From positions 1 to 32,854 of the forward strand of contig CAIKOL010000340.1 in the NCBI GenBank assembly GCA_903829085.1: DNA of 32,854 nt, in the 5' to 3' direction. Each line of letters opens with the position of its first letter. Position 1 is the stretch's first letter. Origin of the DNA: an uncultured Anaerolineales bacterium. Its GTDB lineage: Bacteria; Chloroflexota; Anaerolineae; Anaerolineales; Villigracilaceae. Shown piece by piece: positions 1-22,990 of the stretch. Below the pieces are notes generated by a model. That model had not been told where the DNA came from and made no database searches. It saw only the letters and a list, made by a program, of their open reading frames with translations. The position numbers and the translations under genes are program-made.

Positions 1-36
1 CATCTCTTTCCCTACTTCACGGAGATTCCCAAAGAG
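1..36 (-). repeat. Right end of a type A palindromic element, cut by the window start
   Basis: Positions 1-36 match 9810-9845 at 34 of 36 bases (differences at 3 and 31), so this is the outer arm of the same element found complete at 9732-9845. Its central hairpin and other arm lie before the window. By alignment the element ends at 36. If it made a target duplication like the other copies, the next bases, CCATATGGTT (37-46), should recur just upstream of the window. The coaBC promoter begins directly after it. Confidence 0.75.
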
Positions 37-73
37 CCATATGGTTTTTTCACTAAGCGTTACCGGTTGGCAT

Positions 74-9721: not shown

Positions 9722-9731
9722 CCTGCAATCA
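9722..9731. repeat. Left direct repeat flanking the type A element (target-site duplication)
   Basis: CCTGCAATCA here is repeated exactly at 9846-9855, immediately outside the two ends of the palindromic element. Confidence 0.75.
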
Positions 9732-9845
9732 GGTTTTTAGGGAATTAGCTTAGTGAGGCAACAAACAGGGAGTATTGGGCAGGTCGCTTCGCAGCCCGCC
9801 CAACACCCCCACCTCTTTCCCTACTTCACGGAGATTCCCGAAGAG
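9732..9845 (-). mobile_element. Complete type A palindromic miniature element (114 bp)
   Basis: The central imperfect hairpin pairs 9768-9780 with 9798-9810 and is topped by GCTTCGC, the complement of GCGAAGC. The outer arms are imperfect inverted repeats ending in TTTAGGGAAT on one side and TTCGGGAAT on the other (read inward). The element is bracketed by perfect 10-bp direct repeats, CCTGCAATCA. Positions 9810-9845 are 34/36 identical to positions 1-36, and the reverse complement resembles 12929-13041. It encodes nothing, so movement would need a transposase supplied elsewhere. It lies between divergent genes and so is not a simple terminator. Confidence 0.75.
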
Positions 9846-9855
9846 CCTGCAATCA
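9846..9855. repeat. Right direct repeat flanking the type A element (target-site duplication)
   Basis: Second copy of CCTGCAATCA, identical to 9722-9731. In the partial copy at the window start the same element end is followed by a different sequence (CCATATGGTT), so this repeat is host DNA and not part of the element. Confidence 0.75.
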
Positions 9856-12922: not shown

Positions 12923-12928
12923 TCCTTG

Positions 12929-13041
12929 CACGTTAGGAATTTCCGTGAAACAGGGATAGGAATGGGGTGTTGAGTAGGCCGCGAAGCGGTCCACCCAACA
13001 CCCCATATTCCATTCATTACAACGCAAATCTCCAAAGAATC
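12929..13041 (+). repeat. Type A palindromic element (about 113 bp) in a convergent gap
   Basis: The hairpin pairs GGGGTGTTG (12964-12972) with CAACACCCC (12996-13004). Further pairs inside lead to GCGAAGC (12981-12987). The left arm, GGAATTTCCGTGAA (12936-12949), matches the reverse complement of the arm at 9810-9845, and the right arm GCAAATCTCC (13024-13033) matches its partner. The predicted length equals that of the complete copy to within one base. No target duplication is visible: the flanks AATCCTTG and ATAGTCAT differ. This copy may be older or rearranged. It follows the phosphatase stop by only 6 nt and may also end that transcript. Confidence 0.65.
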
Positions 13042-13083
13042 ATAGTCATTTCAACCAAACTGCCGGAAATTTCAAATTTAAGA

Positions 13084-13091
13084 GCGCAAAG
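13084..13091. repeat. Left direct repeat flanking a type B element (target-site duplication)
   Basis: GCGCAAAG is repeated exactly at 13185-13192, adjacent to both ends of the element. By chance the match extends to ten bases (GCGCAAAGGT), because the element begins GT. Confidence 0.7.
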
Positions 13092-13184
13092 GTATCTTCT
13101 CAAAAATCCGGAGTGTGGGGTGTTTTTTGGTGGGTGAAGCCCGCCAAAAAACACCCCACTTTCCCCCTTTTATTGAGATTGTAC
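13092..13184. mobile_element. Type B palindromic miniature element (93 bp)
   Basis: GTGGGGTGTTTTTTGG (13115-13130) pairs perfectly with 13144-13159. A T-G wobble and GGG/CCC follow, topped by GTGAAGC (13134-13140), giving a 20-pair hairpin. The ends are inverted repeats: GTATCTTCTCAAAAA on the left and GTACAATCTCAATAAAA read inward from the right. The same end sequence occurs at 22900-22990. Perfect 8-bp direct repeats flank it. It sits between the stops of two convergent genes, so the hairpin may also terminate transcripts, although no long T-run directly follows the stem. Confidence 0.75.
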
Positions 13185-13192
13185 GCGCAAAG
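13185..13192. repeat. Right direct repeat flanking the type B element (target-site duplication)
   Basis: Second exact copy of GCGCAAAG. It runs into a CACGAAGGGGTACAAAGA stretch that resembles 18904-18924, so the element appears to have landed in a piece of another dispersed repeat. Confidence 0.7.
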
Positions 13193-22899: not shown

Positions 22900-22990
22900 G
22901 ATACTTCTCAATAAATTGGGGGCGGGGGGAGTGCGTGCGGCGTAGCTGCACGCACTCCCCCCAATCCTCCGCCACTTATTGTGAAGATAC
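22900..22990. mobile_element. Type B palindromic miniature element (91 bp)
   Basis: GGGGGGAGTGCGTGC (22924-22938) and its perfect complement (22948-22962) form a 15-pair stem. A G-T pair and GCGTAGC (22940-22946), a GNA-type triloop, cap it. The ends are inverted repeats: GATACTTCTCAATAA on the left, and GTATCTTCACAATAA read inward from the right. These match the ends of 13092-13184, while the stem sequence is entirely different. It separates the end of the nine-gene minus-strand run from the MBL gene and may also act as a terminator. Confidence 0.72.

Follow-up and report, generated by a model that had tools for sequence, protein, structure and literature searches.

Several prokaryotic families of small non-autonomous, non-coding transposons (MITEs), among them Nezha, ERIC, RUP, Chunjie and QMITE, are short, intergenic and foldable, and carry inverted-repeat ends and target duplications. 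Insertion sequences of the ISL3 family, which encode their own transposase, are known to produce an 8-bp duplication. REP and REPIN elements are abundant extragenic palindromes with short loops and are defined by a GTAG or CGTC tag adjoining the palindrome (PMC3733652). In DNA, a GNA loop closed by two G-C pairs is extraordinarily stable, and d(GCGNAGC) mini-hairpins, in which the G and A of the loop are fixed while N is free, are known mainly from oligonucleotide chemistry (PMC4686876 and references therein). Quasipalindrome template switching homogenises the arms of inverted repeats, with compensated changes that include transversions, and inverts spacers of 2–5 nt, including GAA/TTC; bacterial data on this process are said to favour transversions (PMC8604942), and it has been proposed to create and maintain stems (PMC8794818).

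The hairpins described here are the palindromic cores of MITEs of Anaerolineae (Chloroflexota). With the described prokaryotic MITEs these elements share small size, lack of coding capacity, inverted-repeat ends, target duplications, intergenic placement and foldability, but they differ in the recurrence, across unrelated ends, of an inner hairpin that has a GGGGTGT base and a triloop of the G-N-A or AAA type, and in that its stems covary. The apex follows the same G-C-closed rule as d(GCGNAGC), which here is a recurrent genomic element. Unlike in the known cases of quasipalindrome switching, the mobile element to which the process is here proposed to apply has been amplified and has a fixed apex. 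A description of these elements was not found in the literature searched, which was covered in part. Covariation is usually taken as proof of selection on structure, whereas here it occurs in mobile DNA with many natural replicates and with signs that copying, rather than selection on each copy, matches the arms. As the G-N-A rule coincides with that of a DNA hairpin of defined chemistry, these elements could allow direct tests of how hairpin stability contributes to template switching and to the origin of MITEs.

Sequences and samples

The window is the whole 32,854-nt stretch that was analysed, contig C340 of a draft genome (G000) of 3.24 Mb in 410 contigs that is about 80% complete; its gene content is ordinary. 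Triloop palindromes were counted at a score of at least 13, with ten shuffled copies as the null, in an unselected 213.6-kb sample of contigs of the same genome. Loops were also counted in a larger sample of 821 kb, for which some stretches had been picked on the basis of hairpin hits; such selection applies to half of the genome stretches surveyed. For covariation within families, elements were selected by their terminal repeats only and the arms were located from sequence alone; an earlier count based on loose arm similarity gave false positives and was replaced by this one. Target duplications were tested statistically for families A, B/C and E. Contigs of this genome frequently break inside these MITEs, as at window positions 1-38 and at many other contig ends, and copy numbers are therefore underestimates, elements at the edges being cut.

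Results

The four apex motifs that a sequence-only reading had reported in the window are present, and each of these hairpins forms the core of a MITE of 88–117 bp with terminal inverted repeats. The features are as follows.

1..38, minus strand: end of a family-A MITE, GGCTCTTTGGGAATCTCCGTG..., cut by the contig start
9732..9847, strand unspecified: family-A MITE, 116 bp, apex GCGAAGC on the minus strand (9786-9792)
9724-9731 and 9848-9855: target duplication of this element, TGCAATCA on both sides, exact
12927..13041, strand unspecified: diverged copy of the family-A MITE, 115 bp, target duplication 6/8
12962-13006: core hairpin of the preceding element, apex GCGAAGC at 12981-12987
13092..13184, strand unspecified: family-B MITE, 93 bp, ends GTATCTTCTCAAAAA / TTATTGAGATTGTAC
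13115-13159: core of the family-B element, apex GTGAAGC at 13134-13140
13084-13091 and 13185-13192: target duplication of the family-B element, GCGCAAAG, exact over 8 bp
22900..22990, strand unspecified: family-C MITE, 91 bp, ends of the family-B kind, target duplication CCTTTCTT/CCATTCTT, 7/8
22924-22962: core of the family-C element, apex GCGTAGC at 22940-22946

The assignment to MITEs is based on inverted-repeat ends, 8-bp duplications and a hairpin-free junction in relatives. The earlier reading had missed that the hairpins are MITE cores with such ends and duplications, and its single interval 12964-13159 spans two separate elements, 12927-13041 and 13092-13184. Most copies measure 103–117 bp in family A, 88–95 bp in B/C and 100–103 bp in E, the cores being flanked by conserved, imperfect inverted repeats that end in GGYTCTYTGGGAATY (A), GTATCTTCTCAATAA or GTAACTTCTCAATAA (B/C) and AGAACCTATCCGAAAATT (E). 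Identity between the two flanks is 0.62–0.94 over exactly 8 positions in family A (n=16) and 0.74–0.87 over exactly 8 positions in B/C (n=23), and mostly 0.2–0.4 outside these positions; the duplication of family E is short, TA-like and unclear. The gene junction that holds the 12927-13184 pair is 296 bp long in the window as compared to approximately 45–77 bp, without hairpins, in three relatives that lack the double insertion (L217, L218 and L219). A family-B element was also found nested in a family-E element (L111:2961).

The perfectly paired stems of the earlier description were, strictly, found in none of the four cores. Those at 22943 (one mismatch) and 13137 (a wobble near the apex) come close, while the core at 12984 has several mismatches, that at 9786 at least four, and many stems elsewhere are likewise imperfect. 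As single-stranded DNA, 12962-13006, 13115-13159 and 22924-22962 fold with z-scores of -6.8 to -8.4 on both strands relative to dinucleotide shuffles, and the 9786 core folds weakly (z -2.7/-3.1 against the same kind of null).

GCGNAGC is not in itself enriched, as the window contains 13 matches where 16.5 would be expected, and the majority of these matches lie outside any hairpin; the converse does hold, in that long triloop palindromes mostly carry GNA. Of the 20 triloop palindromes in the unselected contigs, 14 are capped by GNA and two by AAA, and the ten shuffles yielded one triloop palindrome in total. The partly hairpin-selected 821 kb gave 59 GNA, 18 AAA and 6 other loops, with few palindromes of other loop lengths. 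Every N occurs in GNA (GAA 48, GCA 9, GTA 8, GGA 8), and the AAA loops, which are common in families A2 and D, fall outside the exceptionally stable GNA class. The part that GNA may play in these cores is suggested by the chemistry of stable DNA mini-hairpins. A fixed apex over a free stem, as had been proposed, describes the family in part, since the apex is indeed conserved and so is the GGGGTGT at the stem base.

A covariance model of the core returned 111 matches in the genome of the window, both strands counted, and a patchy distribution in relatives (62, 45, 31, 26, 23, 17, 16 and a few single matches), with none in 19 of 31 genomes. The exact core pattern was found in only 10 of 396 genomes of the class, two of which hold 57 and 60 matches, and a reversed control of the pattern matched once in the whole 396-genome survey. 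Across the class, the core GGGGTGT...GC-GNA-GC...ACACCCC, with a GNA or AAA apex, lies inside MITEs with about seven unrelated end types: A; B/C; D (CGGCTTTCTCAAAGT); an E-like end with a B-like core (L178); GGACTTACGCA (L179-L182); GTAACTGCTCAG (L191, L210, L216); and GGGCAATCGCATTCTAA (L213-L215). Exchange of cores between families would be the likeliest way for unrelated MITEs to have come to share it. Elements ending in GGGCAATCGCATTCTAA (L193 and L213-L215, genome G307) contain a tandem pair of different GNA hairpins. A small extra family of GNA palindromes (L019:1201 and L105:1013) has A/T runs at the base and the common flanks GGCTGGGAGAATA ... ATCTTTCC.

The covariation that the earlier reading had suggested looking for proved very strong, with 91 double-changed cells as compared to 25 in shuffles. 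Among the terminal-repeat-selected elements compensated doubles numbered 13 against 3.4 in shuffles for family A, 12 against 5.9 for C, 9 against 2.4 for E and 4 against 1.0 for B, and the observed number was reached by 0 of 1000 shuffles for A, C and E and by 1 of 1000 for B. In 37 distinct 35-nt cores taken across families, pairing amounts to 96.5%, a value inflated by their having been chosen partly for pairing, and 14 of 16 pairs have changed on both sides; the covariation score of 0.454, which relatedness among the cores inflates, compares with 0.109 after shuffling and at most 0.066 after sliding. Family A has 46 single-sided changes to its 13 doubles, which indicates that any rewriting of the arms is slow relative to mutation, and the excess of single-sided changes over doubles indicates that resident copies also decay. 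The doubles comprise 21 transversions and 16 transitions, the single changes 33 transversions and 74 transitions; wobbles account for 38 of the 107 single changes, which is near the neutral expectation and no excess. The orientation of the loop relative to the asymmetric outer arms is mixed in all families (A1 2:4, A2 4:5, C 6:3, E 7:6; B 12:9 as counted, a few copies being assigned to both B and C and the assignment of L105 being doubtful).

A remnant of an ISL3-family transposase gene (L158, from the same-genus genome G002) and its relative L185, which is 70% identical, have ends GGYTCATTGGGAATCGCCGTGAT...GGGGGTGG that resemble those of family A; these insertion sequences also share with family A the 8-bp duplication, which was seen at L155, but they encode a transposase and are without the inner GNA hairpin. 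An ISL3-type transposase is thus, on the resemblance of the ends, the likely mobiliser of family A. In the draft genome of the window itself (approximately 80% complete), neither an ISL3 element nor a complete autonomous partner was detected, and searches for transposase partners of B/C and E returned none. The ISL3 transposases of genomes G004, G010 and G021 were discarded as a source of family A, their ends being different. An IS1182-like transposase (L124:144-1754) has ends CAGGGCTTTCTTAAAGATAC similar to those of family D, which it may possibly mobilise.

Discussion

We consider the probable best explanation overall to be that the MITE cores are kept paired by quasipalindrome template switching, while their ends are used in trans by DDE transposases. 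The core would be extruded during replication and one arm would serve as template for the other, such that a mutation in one arm would be either reversed or copied to its partner, and the 3-nt loop would sometimes be inverted. Pairing could in this way be renewed without selection on each resident copy, leaving the stem sequence free to drift. Less firmly, the GNA apex may be kept because the very stable d(GC-GNA-GC) would make extrusion and arm copying efficient, and cores that retain it would stay well paired. The terminal repeats would be acted upon in trans by DDE transposases, an ISL3-family enzyme being the candidate for family A. The earlier reading had left the choice between selection for structure and the joint rewriting of both arms by copying; our survey speaks for copying, as compensated pairs are far more numerous than in shuffles, the doubles are rich in transversions, single wobbles are not in excess and both loop orientations occur. 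A route through G-T intermediates is disfavoured because it would enrich transitions and wobbles. Footprints consistent with arm homogenisation and with spacer inversion are both present in these cores; no template-switch event was seen directly in the sequences surveyed, and no orthologue of the same insertion with a changed stem was found in those of the relatives. The mixed loop orientation could instead reflect recombination between copies. A further and rather doubtful extension is that the GNA-capped core is an exchangeable module acquired by unrelated Anaerolineae MITEs, whose stable tip drives snap-back copying, thereby keeping the core paired and able to turn one adjacent transposon end into a new double-ended MITE.

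The main rival to template switching, which we judge possible but on balance unlikely, is selection during amplification: a transposase or host factor would need the GNA-capped core, only paired lineages would amplify, and stems would change in active copies by ordinary two-step compensation and, once inserted, decay neutrally. The occurrence of GGGGTGT and a GNA or AAA apex in unrelated MITE families does suggest a common requirement, and the neutral appearance of resident copies, judged by their single wobbles, would follow from a constraint limited to active copies. Such selection alone, however, leaves both the loop orientations and the transversion-richer doubles unexplained, and the hairpin-less copies L090:5469 and L121:15318 keep fair duplications, thereby suggesting that the core is not strictly required for insertion, unless it was lost later. 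It is very improbable that there is no continuing process and that each family was founded by a separate perfect palindrome, the variation being that of founders plus decay; many differences do lie between families and many single-sided mutations within them, but compensated doubles within families are far above shuffles and loop orientation varies within families as well. The birth of a whole element from one fold-back is unsupported, as the region from terminal repeat to stem is no more self-complementary than shuffles.

Two readings that assign the hairpins to known classes fare worse. That they are maintained for a role in gene expression, as transcription terminators or as hairpins that stabilise RNA, is highly improbable: stable stems do lie between genes and folding is known for MITE transcripts (PMC10969869), but placement equals the intergenic baseline (15 convergent, 11 divergent and 33 tandem against 22/21/57%) and extends to promoter regions between divergent genes, as at window 9732-9847, a regular U-tract after the hairpins is absent, wobble pairs are not favoured, and the G-N-A rule that is conserved belongs to mini-hairpins of DNA. 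No Rfam match at gathering score was obtained in the window. Least credible, and mostly refuted, is that they are REP/REPIN elements moved by a REP-associated tyrosine transposase (RAYT), a reading that would draw on their being extragenic palindromes with short loops and on the two PF01797 proteins encoded in the window's genome. Against it, the family consensus is without the GTAG/CGTC tag, the GTAG of the 12984 copy being a private variant, and transposition of the DDE type agrees with the terminal repeats and the 8-bp duplications. PF01797/Y1 proteins occur in 30 of the 31 related genomes, with or without hairpins, and the loci flanking the two PF01797 genes contain no such hairpins. The search for a nuclease or transposase binding GNA loops, which the earlier reading had envisaged, yielded none. 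One 530-aa protein (L002:310-1902) has a C-terminal Y1_Tnp-like region, and frames of similar size with this domain occur in many relatives; its N-terminus resembles, by eye, a receiver domain, and it is probably a domesticated domain.

Several single copies depart from the general pattern. A perfect palindrome with 41-bp arms at the beginning of contig C343 (L012:67; 1-120) was rejected as a rewritten element and is probably an assembly fold-back, since its symmetry extends through unique flanking sequence as far as the contig end. In the MITE copies L090:5469-5516, L121:15318-15420 and L093:6126-6232 the hairpin is deleted or loopless and the duplications are still fair (5-7/8). L117:2994-3042 and L147 are family-A left halves that end abruptly at GGGGTGTTGGG, inside the hairpin, possibly as a result of hairpin-centred breaks or deletions, and L099:725 is an apparent hybrid in which a left end of family D and a right end of family A meet at the core.
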